Source: Thalassovita litoralis (GTDB taxonomy: Bacteria; Pseudomonadota; Alphaproteobacteria; Rhodobacterales; Rhodobacteraceae). From it: a DNA stretch of 64,000 nt. Where the stretch lies: assembly GCF_900182725.1 (NCBI RefSeq), contig NZ_FXTO01000013.1:1-64000 (forward strand), read 5' to 3'. Under the pieces are notes generated by a model. That model was not told where the DNA came from. It saw nothing but the letters and a program-made list of their open reading frames with translations, and ran no database searches. Numbering within the stretch: the stretch's first letter is position 1; each line of letters opens with the position of its first letter. A program made the position numbers and the translations under genes. Below are positions 50,910 to 59,210 of this stretch, one piece after another.

Positions 50910-52160
50910 ATGCGACCCATCCCGGTGCTCACCGCCATTTTGGTGACAGCGTTTCTATATGTTCTGGTGATGGAGCGCGAAGCGCTCATGGCCTTTGCCC
51001 TGTCAGGTGATGTTGAACAGGCGATAGAGGTCGCCAACACAAACGACACCACCCCCGAAGTCACCAAACCAGACCGCCCCACCCATAAACCCGTGGGCGT
51101 GGTCGCCCTGCATTCCACGGCACAGGTGATTGACAGCGCCGTGGTTTTGCGCGGCGAGACGCAGGCCATGCGGCAGGTCGATGTCCGCGCCGAAACCACG
51201 GCACAGGTGGTTTCCGATCCGCTGCGCCGGGGGGCCTATGTGGAACGGGGCCAAACCCTGTGTGAACTGGACCCCGGCACCCGCCCCGCCAGCCTGGCCG
51301 AGGCTCAGGCCGGTCTGGCCAGCGCCCGCGCCCGTATCCCAGAAGCGCAAGCGAACCTGAAAAAGGCCGAAGCCGCCCTGCACGAAGCAACGATTAACTA
51401 TAACGTCGCCAAGAAGCTGAACACCTCGGGCTATGCCGCGGAAACCCGTCTGGCAGGCGCCGAAGCCGCCGCCAAAGCAGCCGAGGCCGGTGTGGAATCT
51501 GCCCGGTCGGGACTGGAAACCGTTCAGGCCAATATCGAATCCGCGCAGGCCGCCGTTGCAGCCCGCCAAAAGGAAATCGACCGCCTGACCATCACCGCAC
51601 CGTTTACCGGCCTGCTGGAATCCGACAGCGCCGAATTGGGTAGCCTGCTGCAATCCGGCGGGCTGTGCGCCACGGTGATACAATTGAACCCGATCAAGCT
51701 GGTGGGCTATGTGCCTGAAACCGAAATTGACCGCGTGTCGGTCGGGGCTTTGGCAGGGACGCGGCTGACCACCGGCACACAGGTGCAGGGGCGCGTGACC
51801 TTTTTGTCCCGTTCCGCCGATCCGCAAACACGCACCTTCCGCGTGGATATTGACGTTGCCAACCCCGATCTGAAAATCCGCGACGGACAGACGGCAGAAA
51901 TCCTGATCGCGTCAGACGGGGCAAAGGCCCATTTGCTGCCGCAATCGGCACTGACGTTGAATGACGATGGCAAACTTGGCGTTCGGCTGGTTGGGGCGAA
52001 TAATATCGTGGCCTTCGCCCCCATCACGCTGGTGCGCGACACCGCGCAGGGCGTGTGGATCACCGGGCTGGACGAAACCGCCGACGTGATCATCGTCGGG
52101 CAGGAATATGTCACCGCAGGCGTCACCGTTGCCCCCACCTTTCAGGAGGTCGCGCAATGA
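50910..52160 (+). CDS. RND efflux periplasmic adaptor (membrane fusion protein)
   Basis: 416 residues from the ATG at 50910 (MRPIPVLTAILVTAFLYVLV), a signal-anchor start. Lipoyl/barrel-sandwich halves (VDVRAETTAQVVSDPLRRGA and LTITAPFTGLLESD) bracket a long coiled-coil hairpin (about residues 130-245), then a beta-barrel domain. HlyD/AcrA-family adaptors bridge pump and outer membrane channel. Overlaps the pump gene by ATGA. Confidence 0.92.
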   Translation: MRPIPVLTAILVTAFLYVLVMEREALMAFALSGDVEQAIEVANTNDTTPEVTKPDRPTHKPVGVVALHSTAQVIDSAVVLRGETQAMRQVDVRAETTAQVVSDPLRRGAYVERGQTLCELDPGTRPASLAEAQAGLASARARIPEAQANLKKAEAALHEATINYNVAKKLNTSGYAAETRLAGAEAAAKAAEAGVESARSGLETVQANIESAQAAVAARQKEIDRLTITAPFTGLLESDSAELGSLLQSGGLCATVIQLNPIKLVGYVPETEIDRVSVGALAGTRLTTGTQVQGRVTFLSRSADPQTRTFRVDIDVANPDLKIRDGQTAEILIASDGAKAHLLPQSALTLNDDGKLGVRLVGANNIVAFAPITLVRDTAQGVWITGLDETADVIIVGQEYVTAGVTVAPTFQEVAQ

Positions 52161-55100
52161 CCGGAATGGTCGATTGGGCCGCCGCCCGCGCCCGCATGAT
52201 CGTGGCTTTTATCATCCTGTCGCTGGCGGCAGGCTGGACGGCCTATCGTGACCTGCCCAAAGAAGGAGAGCCGGATATCGAAATCCCGGCTCTTTTCGTA
52301 TCTGTCCCCTTTCCCGGCATTTCCGCCGAAGACAGCGAAACCCTGCTGGTCAAACCGATGGAAACGGAATTTTCCGATCTGGACGGGCTGAAAACCATGT
52401 CCTCGACCGCGGCCGAGGGATACGCGGGCGTGGCGCTGGAATTTGAATTTGGCTGGGATAAATCCAAGGTGCTGGCCGATGTGCGCGACGCCATGTCCAC
52501 CGCCGAAAGCAAATTCCCGGATGGGGCGGAAAAATATACCGTCAACGAAATCAACTTTTCCGAATTTCCCATCATCATCGTGAACCTGACCGGCGATGTC
52601 CCCGAACGCACCATGTTTCAGGTCGCCAAAGACCTGCAAGACAAGGTCGAAGGGCTGGACGCTGTGCTGGAAGCCGGGATTGCCGGATCGCGCGATGAAA
52701 TGGTCGAGGTTGTGATCGACCCGCTGCGTCTTGAATCCTACAACGTCACCGCTGCGGAACTGATCAACGTGGTGCGCAACAATAACATGCTGGTCGCCGC
52801 AGGCGAGGTAGACAGCGCCCAAGGCACGTTTTCGGTCAAGATCCCGTCGTCCTTTGATGAACCGCGCGACATTTATTCCCTGCCGGTCAAAATCAATGGT
52901 CAGCGGGTTGTGACACTGGGCGATCTGGCCGAAATCCGCCTGACATTCGAGGATCGCACCGGGATTGCCCGCTTCAACGGCGAACCCACCGTGGCGCTGC
53001 AAGTGGTCAAACGCAAGGGCTTCAACCTGCTGGACACCACCGCCGCCGTGCGGCAGGTGGTTGACCAGGCGCAAACCGAATGGCCCACTGATTTACAAGC
53101 CGCCGTCACCGTTGGCACGTCAAACGACCAAAGCCGCGTCGTTGGGTCGATGGTCAGCCAGCTTGAAGGCTCGGTGCTGACAGCTATCGCGCTGGTGATG
53201 ATCGTGGTTCTGTCCAGCCTTGGCAGCCGCGCCGCGCTACTGGTGGGCTTTGCCATTCCTACCTCGTTCCTGCTGTGTTTCCTGCTGCTGGCGGCGATGG
53301 GCGTCACCATTTCCAACATTGTCATGTTCGGCCTGATTCTGGCCGTGGGGATGCTGGTGGATGGGGCCATCGTGGTTGTGGAATATGCCGACAAACGTAT
53401 CTCCGAAGGGGTCGGCCCCATGCACGCCTATGTCGAGGCGGCAAAGCGCATGTTCTGGCCCATCGTGTCGTCCACCGCGACCACGCTTTGCGCGTTTTTG
53501 CCCATGCTGTTCTGGCCCGGCGTTCCGGGCGAATTTATGGGGATGCTGCCCGTTACGCTGATTTTCGTGTTGTCCGCCTCGTTGGTGGTGGCGCTGATCT
53601 ATCTGCCTGTGATGGGCGGGGTGTCCGGGCGGCTGAGCCGTAAATTCAACGGTGCCTCTGCCTTTTTGACCGCCCATGCCCCGTGGTGGCTGCGCGCCCT
53701 GCTGGTGCCGGTTAGCTGGATGGGTATGTTCATCGGCGCGATGCAGGTGCTGAACCCCGGCTATCTGTTCGGCGGCACCAGCCCCCTGCCCCCGGCCTTT
53801 GCTTCTTTGCCCGGCACGGTGCTGTTTTTCGGGGCGGCCTTTCTGGCCTCGATCGCGCTGGGATCGGTCAAAATCACATGGGCACGCCGCACCCGCATCA
53901 AGGCGGGCCACAAACGCACACCTTTTGGGATTTTGATCAAGTTCATCGCAGGCAATCCGATTATGCCACTGATCACGGTGGGCACTGTCATTACCTTTGT
54001 CGTGCTGACGATGATGACCTTTTCCCAAAATAGCAAAGGCGTGGAATTCTTTGTGGATTCCGAACCGGAACAGGCCATCGTCTATGTCCGCGCCCGTGGC
54101 AACCTGTCCCTGCATGAAAAGGACGCGCTGGTGGCACAGGTCGAAAAGATCGTGCTGGCCCATCCCGGTGTGCTGAACGCCTTTGCCTTCGCGGGTGAAG
54201 GCGGGTTGAAAAACAATACCGGGGGCGCGCAGCCGCCGCTGGATACGATCGGTCAGGTTCAGCTTGAAACAATTCCGTGGGAAGACCGATCCGACCGTCC
54301 TGATCTGGACGGCGACGTGATCATTGCCGAACTGACCCAACAGTTAGAACAAATCCCCGGCATCAAGATCGAGATTCTGGCACAAGCGATGGGTCCGGCC
54401 TCGGCCAAGCCGGTACATCTGCGCCTGCTGGGGAATAACTGGGCCGATCTGGTGAAAGCCACCGAACTTGCCCGCACACATTTTGAAGACACCGAAGGGC
54501 TGCAACTGGTCGAAGACACCCTGCCCCTGCCCGGTATTGACTGGCAAATCAACGTGGATGTTGAAAAAGCCGGGCTTTATGGCGCGGATGTGGCCACTGT
54601 GGGCGCAATGGTCCAACTGGTCACACGCGGCATCCTGCTGGACACGATGCGCGTGGACACCAGTGACGAAGAAATCGAAATCCGCGTCCGCTTGCCGGAA
54701 CAGAACCGCGTCCTGTCTACGCTGGACACGCTGAAGGTGCGCACCCCGGACGGGCTGGTGCCGCTGGCCAATTTCATCACCCGCGAACCCGTGCCCAAAC
54801 TGGCGCAGATCAAACGCGTGGATCAAACCCGCTACTTCGATGTCAAAGCGGGCGTGGTGGACGGGCTGACCAAAACCGCCACCAACCCCGATGGGACGAC
54901 CTATCAGGTGCCGATCAACGCCAATGAACGCATCGCAACACTGACAGAATGGCTGAATTCAAACCCATTTCCGGCGGGCATCGAATGGGAATGGACCGGC
55001 GATCAGGAAGATCAGGCCGAATCTCAGGCCTTCCTGATGCAAGCCTTTGCTGCCGCGCTGGCGCTGATGTTCATCATCCTTTTGGCGCAGTTCAACAGCT

Positions 55101-55747
55101 TTTATAATTCGTTCCTTGTGCTGCTGGCGGTGGTTTTGTCCACCACCGGCGTGTTGATCGGGATGATGGTGATGGATCAGGCGTTTTCGATCATCATGAC
55201 AGGCACCGGCATCGTGGCGCTGGCGGGGATCGTGGTGAACAACAATATCGTGCTGATCGACACCTATCAGGAATATTCCGCCTATATGCCCCGGATCGAA
55301 GCCATCGTTCGCACCGCCGAAGATCGCATTCGCCCCGTGCTGCTGACCACCATCACCACGATGGCCGGTCTGGCCCCGATGATGTTCGGCCTGTCGCTGG
55401 ATTTCATTCAGGGCGGTTATTCCATCGACAGCCCCACCGCGCTGTGGTGGAAACAACTGGCAACTGCGGTGGTGTTCGGTCTGGGTATTGCCACAGTGCT
55501 GACGCTGGTGTTCACCCCGTCATTGCTGGCAATCCGGATCTGGCTGACCACCTATTTACGCTGGATTGCCCAAGGGCTGAAGGCACTGTCCCTTGGCCGC
55601 GCCAGCCGCGCCGCACAGGATATGGCCCTGCAACGCGCCGCCCGCAAACTGAAAGCACCAGAAATCATCTGGGACGATGATACCCCTGATGTGGCCGGAT
55701 TTAATGTCGTGTCCTCGGACAGACCGAACATCAAAGCAGCAGAATGA
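52157..55747 (+). CDS. RND-family multidrug/solute efflux permease
   Basis: 1196 residues from ATG 52157. Duplicated six-helix cores with porter domains. Helix-4 motif region GMLVDGAIVVVEYADK has the charged residues of RND proton relay, and the second half has GIVVNNNIVLIDTYQE. Large loop LPGIDWQINVDVEKAGLYG fits the PN/PC porter subdomains. Slightly longer than AcrB, with a C-terminal cytosolic tail (DMALQRAARKLKAPEIIWDD). Substrate unknown; no outer membrane channel gene nearby. Confidence 0.93.
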   Translation: MTGMVDWAAARARMIVAFIILSLAAGWTAYRDLPKEGEPDIEIPALFVSVPFPGISAEDSETLLVKPMETEFSDLDGLKTMSSTAAEGYAGVALEFEFGWDKSKVLADVRDAMSTAESKFPDGAEKYTVNEINFSEFPIIIVNLTGDVPERTMFQVAKDLQDKVEGLDAVLEAGIAGSRDEMVEVVIDPLRLESYNVTAAELINVVRNNNMLVAAGEVDSAQGTFSVKIPSSFDEPRDIYSLPVKINGQRVVTLGDLAEIRLTFEDRTGIARFNGEPTVALQVVKRKGFNLLDTTAAVRQVVDQAQTEWPTDLQAAVTVGTSNDQSRVVGSMVSQLEGSVLTAIALVMIVVLSSLGSRAALLVGFAIPTSFLLCFLLLAAMGVTISNIVMFGLILAVGMLVDGAIVVVEYADKRISEGVGPMHAYVEAAKRMFWPIVSSTATTLCAFLPMLFWPGVPGEFMGMLPVTLIFVLSASLVVALIYLPVMGGVSGRLSRKFNGASAFLTAHAPWWLRALLVPVSWMGMFIGAMQVLNPGYLFGGTSPLPPAFASLPGTVLFFGAAFLASIALGSVKITWARRTRIKAGHKRTPFGILIKFIAGNPIMPLITVGTVITFVVLTMMTFSQNSKGVEFFVDSEPEQAIVYVRARGNLSLHEKDALVAQVEKIVLAHPGVLNAFAFAGEGGLKNNTGGAQPPLDTIGQVQLETIPWEDRSDRPDLDGDVIIAELTQQLEQIPGIKIEILAQAMGPASAKPVHLRLLGNNWADLVKATELARTHFEDTEGLQLVEDTLPLPGIDWQINVDVEKAGLYGADVATVGAMVQLVTRGILLDTMRVDTSDEEIEIRVRLPEQNRVLSTLDTLKVRTPDGLVPLANFITREPVPKLAQIKRVDQTRYFDVKAGVVDGLTKTATNPDGTTYQVPINANERIATLTEWLNSNPFPAGIEWEWTGDQEDQAESQAFLMQAFAAALALMFIILLAQFNSFYNSFLVLLAVVLSTTGVLIGMMVMDQAFSIIMTGTGIVALAGIVVNNNIVLIDTYQEYSAYMPRIEAIVRTAEDRIRPVLLTTITTMAGLAPMMFGLSLDFIQGGYSIDSPTALWWKQLATAVVFGLGIATVLTLVFTPSLLAIRIWLTTYLRWIAQGLKALSLGRASRAAQDMALQRAARKLKAPEIIWDDDTPDVAGFNVVSSDRPNIKAAE

Positions 55748-55751
55748 TAGG

Positions 55752-55779
55752 AAAAGGTCGGGCCAACGCCCGGCCTTTT
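55752..55779 (+). terminator. Rho-independent terminator of RND operon
   Basis: AAAAGGTCGGGC-CAAC-GCCCGGCCTTTT, a 12-bp stem with one G-T wobble, 4 bp after the pump stop. Also T-rich in the other direction. Confidence 0.9.
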
Positions 55780-55881
55780 CGCCTTATTCGCGCATCCCGA
55801 TGGAGAACCAAGCCCCAACGCGCTTAGGATATCATGGCAAAGTTTCCTAATTGACAGAGATCGCGAACCACCCTAGCGTTC

Positions 55882-56697
55882 ATGTCACTCTTGCTCAGCA
55901 AGCATTTGCCACCATTAGATAAATTTAGGATATACATTTTGTCCATTCGCGCATTTGGCTTGATCTCTGCCCTTTTATTGTCTGCTTGTGGCTCCCCTTC
56001 ATCTGGACCAGTTTCTCGCGCCTCCCTGATGGGCGAAGGTGGAGTAACCGTGGACATTAAACTAGGGGATGCAAAAAACTCGACCATCGCCAGCGGTCGT
56101 ACAGGGCTGATGAATATCACCAGCACATCGCAATTCGTGCAACAACCCATGCGCTTCACGGCCAGCCTGGGTAATTCTGCCGCTGCACAAAAAGTCCGCG
56201 CCGAAGGCAAAACGCTTTATGTCTATGCGGCAACCAAACTCCTGCTTGAGGTCACCGAGAAAGGCAGAAAGGGAATAAAAGAGGGTGGCATAAACCTAGA
56301 AGGGAGTAGTTGCGAAGGGTACAAGTTTGTTCTTTATCCCGGTAACAACTATTCTGTCAGCCTCTATGCCGAACCGAAAATCCGCATTCGTAATAAAAGC
56401 CGTGCCGACACGCCGTTTGGCAAACATACAGATGACTGGGTCGCCTCCTCTCGTGAGGCATTCAGCTCTGTCATAGCGGTCAGGTCCAAGCCATTCATGG
56501 TTGTCGGATACGGAGACAGGTATATGAACGGAGACAGGTATATGAACCCTGTGAATTATGGTCCTGCGGTCACTGTCTCCCATGAATTTGATCGCAGTTG
56601 CACGCTCTCTGCCTCGAAGGAGTTTTTCAAGAGCAAGGGGCGTGAGAAAAACAAGAGCGGCAATGTCGTGCGCCGCGCACCGAAAAAAGCCCAATGA
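55882..56697 (+). CDS. Unrecognised lipoprotein
   Basis: 271 residues from the annotated ATG; an ATG inside the leader (55939 region codes LSIRAFGLISALLLSACGSP) may be missed, so the start is uncertain. A lipobox LLSAC at about residues 32-36 marks a lipoprotein. The mature part is beta-rich with no known domain. A duplicated hexapeptide GDRYMN lies at positions 211-222 (perfect 18-bp tandem repeat in the DNA). It overlaps the next gene by ATGA. Base composition is visibly more AT-rich than the neighbouring ORFs, a sign of possible transfer. Confidence 0.65.
   Translation: MSLLLSKHLPPLDKFRIYILSIRAFGLISALLLSACGSPSSGPVSRASLMGEGGVTVDIKLGDAKNSTIASGRTGLMNITSTSQFVQQPMRFTASLGNSAAAQKVRAEGKTLYVYAATKLLLEVTEKGRKGIKEGGINLEGSSCEGYKFVLYPGNNYSVSLYAEPKIRIRNKSRADTPFGKHTDDWVASSREAFSSVIAVRSKPFMVVGYGDRYMNGDRYMNPVNYGPAVTVSHEFDRSCTLSASKEFFKSKGREKNKSGNVVRRAPKKAQ
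56512..56547 (+). repeat. 18-bp perfect tandem duplication
   Basis: GGAGACAGGTATATGAAC occurs twice without gap inside the lipoprotein gene and adds GDRYMN twice in frame. Copy number may vary between strains. Confidence 0.9.
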
Positions 56698-57224
56698 TTA
56701 ATTCAGTCCTGCCCGCCCCGCGCCCCTTCCTTGCCGTGTTGCTTTGCATCTGGCTTCCTCACGGGGCTTTCGCCTCTGACTTTGGATCTTTGATCAATCA
56801 GGGAAATAGTGCCTTCGAGAAGGCCGTGCAGCAAGACCGCAACTGGCTTAAAAAGGAAAGGGCTGCGGACGAGCGGCGGCGCAGACAGGCCGAAGAAAAT
56901 GCCCGGATACGCGCAGAGGAGGCACGCAGGCACGGGACAACATACGCCGCGCCCGATACAAACAGTTCCGATAGTGGTTCCACAGCGGGATCCAAGCCTG
57001 CGGCGTCTCAATCCGCTGGAACCTCCGGCACCACAAAAGGGGTACGTTCGATTACCTCGGGTGGGCGCGTAGCCGGCACTTCCAACACCGCCCACAGGAT
57101 CACCTGTAACAATGGACAGGAATACCGTATCTGGCGCTCTGGCGAGCAATGGTGGGATGGTCGGGGCGCACGCGGCGGCCAATACCGCGATCTTCGGGAA
57201 GAAGCGGAACGCCAGTGTCGCTGA
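56694..57224 (+). CDS. Unrecognised secreted protein with charged coiled coil
   Basis: 176 residues. Signal peptide (LAVLLCIWLPHGAFA), a highly charged helix rich in Arg/Glu (RAADERRRRQAEENARIRAE, about residues 56-80) likely coiled coil, a Ser/Thr/Gly-rich linker (about 85-130) and a C-terminal cysteine-bearing domain (RITCNNGQEYRIWRSGEQWW, C-terminal C175). Start overlaps the lipoprotein stop (ATGA), so the two are made together. Function unknown. Confidence 0.65.
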   Translation: MINSVLPAPRPFLAVLLCIWLPHGAFASDFGSLINQGNSAFEKAVQQDRNWLKKERAADERRRRQAEENARIRAEEARRHGTTYAAPDTNSSDSGSTAGSKPAASQSAGTSGTTKGVRSITSGGRVAGTSNTAHRITCNNGQEYRIWRSGEQWWDGRGARGGQYRDLREEAERQCR

Positions 57225-57389
57225 CACCGCCCAAGCCAATGGGGGTCCGGCCGCACAGCATCGGACCGCATTCAGCACTAACGATCAAGACCATGACACC
57301 GAATGATCTGTGACGCCAAAATCAAGCGCACGCGATTGGACGTCGAAGTGTGTGCCTCTGGATTGGCTATCTGATCATCACCATGACAT

Positions 57390-59210
57390 TCAGGCCGCCT
57401 CTTCCTCGGATTGTTGGCGGGTCCACAGGCTGTAATACCGGCCCCGTCCGGCCAGAAGTTCGGCATGGGTGCCTTGTTCCACCACTTCGCCCTGTTCCAG
57501 CACCACGATGTTATCCGCGTCGGCAATCGTCGACAGGCGGTGGGCGATGGTGATAACCGTCCGCCCCTGCCCGGCCCGCGCCAAGGCACCCTGAATTTCC
57601 CGTTCGGTATCGGTATCCAAGGCGCTGGTTGCTTCGTCCAACAGCAGGATCGGCGGGTTTTTCAGCAGGGTGCGTGCGATACCCACCCGCTGTTTTTCCC
57701 CACCAGACAATTTCAGCCCCCGTTCGCCCACTTGCGTATCGTAGCCTTCGGGTAAGGACAGGATGAAATCGTGAATCTGGGCGGCTTTTGCGGCTTCGAT
57801 CACGTCGGCCTCGGTCGCGTCGCCCCGGCCATAGGCGATATTGTACCGGATTGAATCGTTGAACAGGACCGTGTCCTGCGGCACCACGCCGATGACGCTG
57901 TGCAGGCTGTCCTGCGTCACGTCCCGCACGTCCTGCCCGTCAATCGTCAGCACCCCGCCCTGCACATCATAGAAGCGGAACAACAGGCGCCCAATGGTGG
58001 ATTTACCCGACCCGGACGAGCCCACGATTGCCACGGTTTGTCCCGCAGGCACGTCAATCGACACGCCTTTTAGAATGGGGCGCGCGGCGTCATAGCCAAA
58101 CTGAACATCCCGCAGGTGAACATGCCCGCCAGACACGGAAATATCCGGCGCGCCGGGTTTGTCCTTCACCTCGGCCGGTTGTTCCAGCAGGTGAAACATT
58201 TCGCTCATATCCACCAGCGATTGCCGGATTTCACGATAGACCGTTCCCAGAAAATTCAGCGGCATGGTGATCTGGATCATATAGGCGTTGACCATGACGA
58301 AATCGCCCACGGTCAGCTTGCCTTGCTCCACACCAATCGCGGCCATCACCATTACGATCACCAGCCCACCCGTGATCAGAAACGCCTGACCGAAATTCAG
58401 AAAGGACAGCGAATAGGCGGTTGAAAGCGCGGCTTTTTGATAGCCTTCCATCGCGTGATCATAGCGGGCGGCTTCGCGCGCTTCAGCGCCGAAATATTTC
58501 ACCGTTTCAAAATTCAGCAGGCTATCAATTGCCTTTTGGTTGGCGTCTGTGTCCTGTTCATTCATCTTGCGGCGCAGTTTCACCCGCCATTCGGTGACGG
58601 CAAAGGTGAACTTCACATAGGCCGCAATCGTCACGGCCACCACGACCAGATACCAGACATCGAACATCCAGAACAGGATGACCGCGATCATCAGCAGTTC
58701 CAAAATCAGCGGCCCGATGGAAAACAGCATGAAGCGCAGCAGGAATTCCACGCCCTTTACGCCGCGTTCGATGATCCGGCTTAGCCCCCCGGTTTTACGC
58801 GTGATGTGATAGCGCATGGACAGGCGGTGGATATGGGTAAAGGTTTCCAACGCCAACGTCCGCAACGCCCGCTGCCCCACCAGTGCGAAAATCGCATCGC
58901 GCAATTGCTGGAACCCGTTCGACATCAGCCGCGCCAGACCATAGGCGATGGTCAACCCCACAGCCCCCAGCATCAGGGGCGGCGCGTCCAGCGCCAGCGC
59001 GTCCACCGCATCCTTGTAAAGCATTGGGGTTACGACAGAAATCACCTTTGCCACGATCAGGGTAATCATCGCCCCGATCACCCGCCATTTGATTTCGGGA
59101 TGGCCTTCGGGCCACAGATAAGGCGCGACGCGGCGAATGGTGGCCCAGCCGTTATTCTGCGTCAGATCAGGATCAGTTTCCGAAGAGGGCTGGGCGTGGC
59201 GGTGTCGCAT
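57390..59210 (-). CDS. Atm1/HMT-type ABC exporter (permease-ATPase fusion)
   Basis: 606 residues, half-transporter. N-terminal six-helix domain (about 25-330) with a long loop carrying ETVKYFGAEAREAARYD, a mark of the Atm1/ABCB7 group, and a nucleotide-binding domain with Walker A GSSGSGKST, signature LSGGEKQRVGIART and Walker B LLLDEATSALD. Homologues export glutathione-linked sulfur species or metal conjugates. Both core domains complete. Single gene. Confidence 0.92.
   Translation of the reverse strand: MRHRHAQPSSETDPDLTQNNGWATIRRVAPYLWPEGHPEIKWRVIGAMITLIVAKVISVVTPMLYKDAVDALALDAPPLMLGAVGLTIAYGLARLMSNGFQQLRDAIFALVGQRALRTLALETFTHIHRLSMRYHITRKTGGLSRIIERGVKGVEFLLRFMLFSIGPLILELLMIAVILFWMFDVWYLVVVAVTIAAYVKFTFAVTEWRVKLRRKMNEQDTDANQKAIDSLLNFETVKYFGAEAREAARYDHAMEGYQKAALSTAYSLSFLNFGQAFLITGGLVIVMVMAAIGVEQGKLTVGDFVMVNAYMIQITMPLNFLGTVYREIRQSLVDMSEMFHLLEQPAEVKDKPGAPDISVSGGHVHLRDVQFGYDAARPILKGVSIDVPAGQTVAIVGSSGSGKSTIGRLLFRFYDVQGGVLTIDGQDVRDVTQDSLHSVIGVVPQDTVLFNDSIRYNIAYGRGDATEADVIEAAKAAQIHDFILSLPEGYDTQVGERGLKLSGGEKQRVGIARTLLKNPPILLLDEATSALDTDTEREIQGALARAGQGRTVITIAHRLSTIADADNIVVLEQGEVVEQGTHAELLAGRGRYYSLWTRQQSEEEAA

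Follow-up and report, generated by a model that had tools for sequence, protein, structure and literature searches.

The closest described counterpart of the locus analysed here is the Maf system of Neisseria, which comprises a lipoprotein (MafA), a polymorphic secreted toxin (MafB) and an immunity protein (MafI). In Maf genomic islands, an outer-membrane lipoprotein gene often lies immediately upstream of a gene for a signal-peptide protein with a conserved N-terminus and a variable C-terminus (PMC5349182; excerpt of PMC4287609). In the test reported in the latter excerpt, MafB was still secreted after deletion of mafA, so the role of the lipoprotein is unsettled even in that system. Two-component spanins (Rz/Rz1) also combine a lipoprotein with a helical periplasmic partner, encoded by overlapping genes (excerpt of PMC6139136).

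In the window (the whole 64-kb stretch of Thalassovita litoralis DNA that was analysed), a gene for a predicted outer-membrane lipoprotein (A) precedes a gene for an exported protein (B). The pair was found at four loci, all in Rhodobacteraceae: the window, Thalassobius vesicularis (L009; T. vesicularis below), a Loktanella MAG (L010) and genome G084 (L005). It is Maf-like in layout: a lipoprotein gene lies immediately upstream of B at all four loci, B is a signal-peptide protein with a constant N part and a variable C part, the taxonomic range is narrow and the genomic sites vary. It is not, however, a member of the Maf system: it occurs in Rhodobacteraceae and not in Neisseria, B has no DUF1020 (PF06255) match in Pfam at E<=5, no immunity gene follows right after B at three of the four loci, and B is not known to be toxic. 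MafB also looks much larger than B. Compared with polymorphic toxins in general, a constant N part joined to an exchanged C part was recovered (leave-one-out HMM over the four loci, the N part being weak in G084), and neither a toxin domain or family nor a cognate variable immunity protein was recognised in the proteins scanned with Pfam, NCBIfam and PADLOC.

The gene pair and its products

The two open reading frames, at 55882-56697 and 56694-57224, overlap by ATGA, as an earlier note on this DNA had described, and both carry the export signals that it had read, i.e. a lipobox (LLSAC) in A and, in B, a Sec-type leader ending in a cleavage-like site (AFA-S), as far as can be read from the sequence. 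The start that the note gave for A, the ATG at 55882, is probably not the true one. Translation of A most likely begins at the TTG at 55939, since a Shine-Dalgarno-like AGGA (55927-55930) lies ahead of this codon and the proteins of the closest relatives begin at the equivalent position. The TTG leaves a 17-residue lead to the lipobox Cys, resembling that from the ATG starts of the relatives; the ATG at 55882 would add 19 residues to which nothing corresponds in T. vesicularis or Loktanella. Taken as a whole, the earlier observation was confirmed in part.

The lipobox Cys of A is kept at all four loci in the alignment, and a small-x-Ala cleavage-like site ends the leader of B, by eye, in each of them. 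Two further cysteines of A, Cys125 and Cys221, may form a disulfide. The junction between the genes reads ATGA in the window, TAATG in Loktanella and TTGA in G084, and the T. vesicularis genes do not overlap. The pair lies downstream of a terminator-like hairpin that is absent from the plus-strand list of the terminator scanner, the same stem being listed on the minus strand. Compared with the T. vesicularis copy, A shows a coding pattern under purifying selection (NG86 dN 0.31 and dS 2.17, dN/dS about 0.14, with dS near saturation). The features of the locus are listed in Table 1.

Table 1. Positions of the gene pair, its parts and its surroundings within the window
Feature	Position	Strand	Remarks
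Variable site between convergent genes	55748..57389	.	RND gene 52157-55747 (+), ABC exporter gene 57390-59210 (-); 1642 bp
Terminator-like hairpin	55756..55783	+	GGTCGGGCCAACGCCCGGCC then TTTT; after the upstream RND gene; read from the sequence
Probable upstream leader, in frame	55882..55938	+	Earlier counted as coding; homologous proteins start close to the TTG
Gene A, predicted outer-membrane lipoprotein	55939..56697	+	252 aa; TTG start; lipobox Cys17
Exact 18-bp tandem duplication inside gene A	56510..56545	+	GDRYMN twice; not seen at the other loci found
Gene B, exported protein	56694..57224	+	176 aa; overlaps gene A by ATGA; signal peptide ending near residue 27
Constant N part of mature B	56775..56930	+	SDFGSLINQGNSAF... 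charged helix; common to the four loci, weakly in G084
C-terminal tip of B	57024..57221	+	Small beta domain and helix, Cys138 and Cys175; of the loci found, T. vesicularis alone has a related tip

The earlier statement that neither protein is recognised was upheld, as no curated family matches A or B. For both proteins, Pfam gave no match at E<=5, NCBIfam none above cutoff, PADLOC none, and the PDB sequence search nothing at E<=0.1; no Rfam family matched near the pair. The best NCBIfam match of A, LptM (12.6 bits vs a cutoff of 27.7), covers residues 22-37 of the 271-aa reading, in the signal region. PHROGs returned only weak matches, the best of unknown function (E 0.0081 for A, 0.013 for B), and the best match of A with a function was an Rz-like spanin (E 0.13), again in the signal region (residues 4-26). 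The B proteins of the three relatives were blank in Pfam except for one sub-cutoff DUF3019 match. AlphaFold was run with alignments of 3 sequences for each protein. The model of A is beta-rich and poor (pLDDT 39.8), and was judged too poor for a fold search. That of B (pLDDT 65.7 overall) has a helix at residues 30-79, with 10-residue block means of 61-90, and a small beta domain with Cys138 and Cys175; Foldseek found no PDB fold match for it at E<=0.001. The segment of B that had been described as a coiled coil is thus a 50-residue charged helix in the model.

The 18-bp tandem duplication reported in the earlier note is exact, and the window has no other exact one of 12-30 bp. A conserved motif of A, found as a single YGARYxNP in T. 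vesicularis and Loktanella, is thereby present twice; the A protein of G084 aligns without this stretch. AT-richness, which had been ascribed to the whole pair, holds for A (GC 0.514, GC3 0.549) but not for B, of average GC (0.599, GC3 0.610; window 0.592). With a GC of 0.541, the 1343-bp stretch of the pair falls in the lowest 3.8% of stretches of the same size, which is notable but not extreme. In Loktanella, the pair (GC 0.541 and 0.537; adjacent lepA 0.549) is not marked as foreign by composition.

Distribution, constant part and exchanged tip

With the window genome counted each time, two carriers of A were found in each of three samples, namely 61 relatives, 9 genus genomes and 394 family genomes; the second carrier in the family sample is G084 (T. 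vesicularis was outside that draw). B occurs in 2 of the 61 relatives, the same two genomes as A. Broad vertical conservation with housekeeping neighbours, which the earlier note had named as the finding that would speak against its interpretation, was looked for and was not seen in these samples. In the class sample, A matched 2 of 385 genomes, one of them (G436) falsely: the alignment (profile 18-95) is confined to the N-terminal lipoprotein region of a protein of 571 aa, which we take to be a von Willebrand type A lipoprotein. In the phylum sample, 2 of 369 genomes were matched, the second (G804) marginally (E 1e-3), over profile positions 6-53 only, which cover mainly the signal region. 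A pattern search of genome contigs matched 34 stretches, among which 2 loci, those of T. vesicularis and the Loktanella MAG, are relatives. The gene order is A then B and both frames are open at all four loci; the B genes of Loktanella and G084 were located by position and not by similarity. Viral contigs, plasmids and phages yielded no homologue of A, and plasmids neither a homologue of B nor a match for the G084 proteins.

To compare the parts of the proteins, a profile was built from three loci and the left-out protein was scored against 999 shuffles, with hand-set boundaries between the N and C parts of B. A was recovered at all four loci (35 to 275 bits, 0/999 shuffles). The N part of B was recovered at all four as well, with 25.2 bits and 0/999 in Loktanella and, weakly, 8.0 bits and 4/999 in G084. 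The C part was recovered in the window (0/999) and more weakly in T. vesicularis (7/999), and was chance-like in Loktanella (119/999) and G084 (524/999). The homologous portion of B comprises the first ~50 mature residues. By these comparisons, A and the N part of B stay together while the tip of B changes, the tips of two loci appearing non-homologous. The window and T. vesicularis tips are homologous (38%), so that exchange becomes visible only between more distant loci.

The Loktanella tip consists of a Cys repeat with a CYSIxDxDxxxxCLA unit and matches a small protein of Pseudomonas plasmids (42% identity over residues 90-153, E 3e-5; 115 plasmid records matched), which has a leader by eye. 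Unlike the pair, the plasmid protein is stand-alone, with no lipoprotein partner annotated in the one record examined, and its repeat is absent from the tip of the window. The unit can be written more generally as CYxIxDxDxxxxCLA, at L010:8768-9337 in the Loktanella tip and at L094:3941-4201 in the Pseudomonas plasmid.

Weak matches to the two parts of B were also inspected, taking the match to start at base 1501 of each locus, an assumption that may be wrong for loci truncated by a contig end. At E<=0.1, the N part had matches in 44 of 394 genomes, those of the window and G084 among them; in the 10 of 18 other loci inspected, four matches lie in other proteins, presumably IstB-, TatA- or DsbA-like, and the remainder in implausible frames. 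The tip matched 27 of 295 genomes at E<=0.05, and its pattern was seen by eye in none of the 13 of 19 loci inspected (that of the window excluded).

Genomic sites and probable mobility

In the window, an AcrB-type RND gene and an ABC exporter gene converge on the pair, and B ends 165 bp from the ABC gene. These flanks lie close together in 8 of 9 genus genomes, the window counted; in G008, they are on two contigs, each near a contig end. The distance between the match ends is 1648 bp in the window and 218 bp in T. vesicularis, 462 bp in G003, 506 bp in G004, 700 bp in G005, 774 bp in G002, 1021 bp in G007 and 1295 bp in G001. Neither A nor B was found by tblastn (E<=1) in the gaps of the other genus genomes, and the gap DNA of the window has just two chance-level matches (17-18 bp) to the other gaps. 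The cargo found there is of other kinds: G002 has a GNAT acetyltransferase and G004 a shorter look-alike of it, G001 and the two contig ends of G008 carry RTX calcium-binding repeats, and G007 has a fragment of the beta-lactamase family. The RND/ABC gap is a cargo hotspot within the genus, and is about 0.2 kb long and cargo-free in T. vesicularis. In the literature searched, nothing was found on integration hotspots between convergent genes.

In T. vesicularis, the pair is placed elsewhere, between an Omp85 and TamB-like region and a tRNA-Arg gene; the Omp85-family gene and the gene that we take to be TamB-like lie just upstream of it (L058:64-4280). The TamB-like gene is present in 9/9 genus genomes and the pair in 2/9, and in the genome of the window it is on a different contig from the pair. 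The TamB-like side of the site is conserved in the four genomes compared, and neither a tRNA nor other similarity was found beside it in the stretches taken from these genomes. The window and T. vesicularis share 61% and 46% identity in the pair proteins, vs 88% in the flanking RND and ABC proteins; since the TamB-like protein is just 62% identical, fast evolution could explain part of this gap. The B frame of T. vesicularis continues into the antisense strand of the tRNA-Arg gene and gains a tail (L002:2253-2858), so the C-terminus of this copy may be altered or the gene may be in decay; a stop codon further upstream in the frame may have been lost.

On one side of the G084 pair there is a weak tyrosine-recombinase match (E 0.0019), and on the other an MbeA-like relaxase (E 8.7e-43). 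The two matches are sub-cutoff in NCBIfam (147 bits vs 500 for the relaxase), and neither candidate has a Pfam match. Downstream of the pair is what is presumably an IS-like sequence, and directly upstream of it is a gene for a large hybrid two-component regulator (propeller, kinase, receiver, AraC; L059:2826-6764). At the window site, no integrase, clear insertion boundary or target repeat was found, only short repeats. Lateral acquisition of the two-gene module, as proposed in the earlier note, is supported by its presence in 2 of 9 genus genomes, at different positions, and by the site without the pair in T. vesicularis; the interpretation given there as a whole is partly supported.

The pair might be recently captured, mostly neutral cargo that is drifting or decaying in a tolerant intergenic site. 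The convergent-gene site does hold different cargo in each species, some of it fragmentary, B reads into a tRNA in T. vesicularis, and a 6-residue duplication sits within a conserved motif of A. However, the frames are open at all four loci and A is under purifying selection, even if the dN/dS given above was obtained with dS near saturation, and we consider this explanation unlikely.

Possible functions

Our preferred reading, to which we give a probability of about 0.42, is that the pair is a horizontally mobile two-gene envelope module made of a lipoprotein dock and an exchangeable recognition tip. A would be an outer-membrane lipoprotein translationally coupled to B, and B would be exported by Sec. 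The constant N-terminal helix of B would dock on A, since a constant A with exchanged tips suggests that A contacts the N part of B. The short C-terminal tip, stabilised by disulfides and exchanged between lineages, would do the species-specific work, most likely recognition at the cell envelope (binding of a surface, a competitor or a phage receptor). Recognition or adhesion is in our view the most likely function of the tip, followed by competition. We infer a physical partnership of A and B from their co-occurrence; binding between them, the outer-membrane or surface location, the disulfides and the recognition role are putative. The proposal of a constant lipoprotein and helix with exchanged tips goes beyond the earlier observation and is drawn from four loci.

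Several points weigh against this reading: the loci are only four, the N part of G084 is weakly linked and one charged helix resembles another, no structure or family match points to a function (the A model being poor and the B tip having no fold match), and B of T. vesicularis is possibly altered or decaying. As to mobility, the G084 recombinase and relaxase lack Pfam matches and the composition of the Loktanella pair is not foreign.

It is improbable that the pair is instead a small Maf-type polymorphic toxin, in which the lipoprotein A lies upstream of a secreted B whose constant N-terminus carries a toxic variable tip directed against competitors. The layout is the same as that of mafA-mafB (PMC5349182; excerpt of PMC4287609), but no candidate for an immunity gene lies directly after B at three of the four loci, B being followed by the convergent ABC gene in the window and by the tRNA in T. 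vesicularis. In Loktanella, an ORF 132 bp downstream of B encodes a lipoprotein-like protein of 104 aa that may be an immunity candidate. In G084, B is followed by the sequence that we assume to be IS-like. Besides the lack of a recognised toxin family in the scanned proteins, the tips are small, and that of Loktanella resembles a stand-alone hypothetical protein of Pseudomonas plasmids. Were A itself the immunity protein, its constancy while the tips change would be difficult to explain.

Slightly harder to credit is a pair that assembles an extracellular fibre or adhesin by curli-type logic, A being a transport or assembly lipoprotein and B the exported subunit. A lipoprotein next to an exported substrate would suit this, the constant N-terminus that directly follows the signal peptide might serve for transport, and Omp85-family and TamB-like genes lie just upstream of the T. 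vesicularis pair; on the other hand, the window copy had no recognisable outer-membrane pore next to it in a scan that covered part of the neighbours of the copies, the Omp85-family and TamB-like neighbours do not accompany the pair in the window genome, whose TamB-like gene is on another contig, A has no Pfam family and B has no amyloid-type repeats by eye. A periplasm-bridging or stress module, either spanin-like or an envelope scaffold, in which an outer-membrane lipoprotein meets a coiled-coil periplasmic partner, is very improbable, and spanin identity unlikely: the overlapping lipoprotein and helical-protein genes and the Rz-like PHROGs match of A agree with it, but the leader of B is cleavable-looking at all four loci by eye, which speaks against a membrane anchor, the gene order is reversed relative to overlapped spanins (excerpt of PMC6139136), A is large (252 aa) and beta-rich in its poor model, and no phage genes, lysis genes included, adjoin the window copy, whose neighbours are RND and ABC transporters.

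If the module of lipoprotein dock and exchangeable tip is real, it would reduce an envelope module to a minimum, one conserved lipoprotein taking up interchangeable tips, like a Maf island stripped to two genes and without recognised toxins or immunity genes, and would give a compact means of studying the exchange of envelope-displayed domains by bacteria. We regard as doubtful the wider claim that such pairs constitute a new mini-system that passes from one of the marine Rhodobacteraceae to another by way of tolerant intergenic sites, with a constant lipoprotein dock and a helix-borne, exchangeable tip that presents varied disulfide-stabilised domains at the envelope, and having no dedicated immunity gene. 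The analysis also identified the RND/ABC intergenic site as a hotspot for cargo within the genus. The RTX-repeat proteins encoded at this hotspot in two species (L057:815-1912 and L055:449-1495) are alike, have no other Pfam domain, are ~350 residues long and carry an N-terminal hydrophobic segment.
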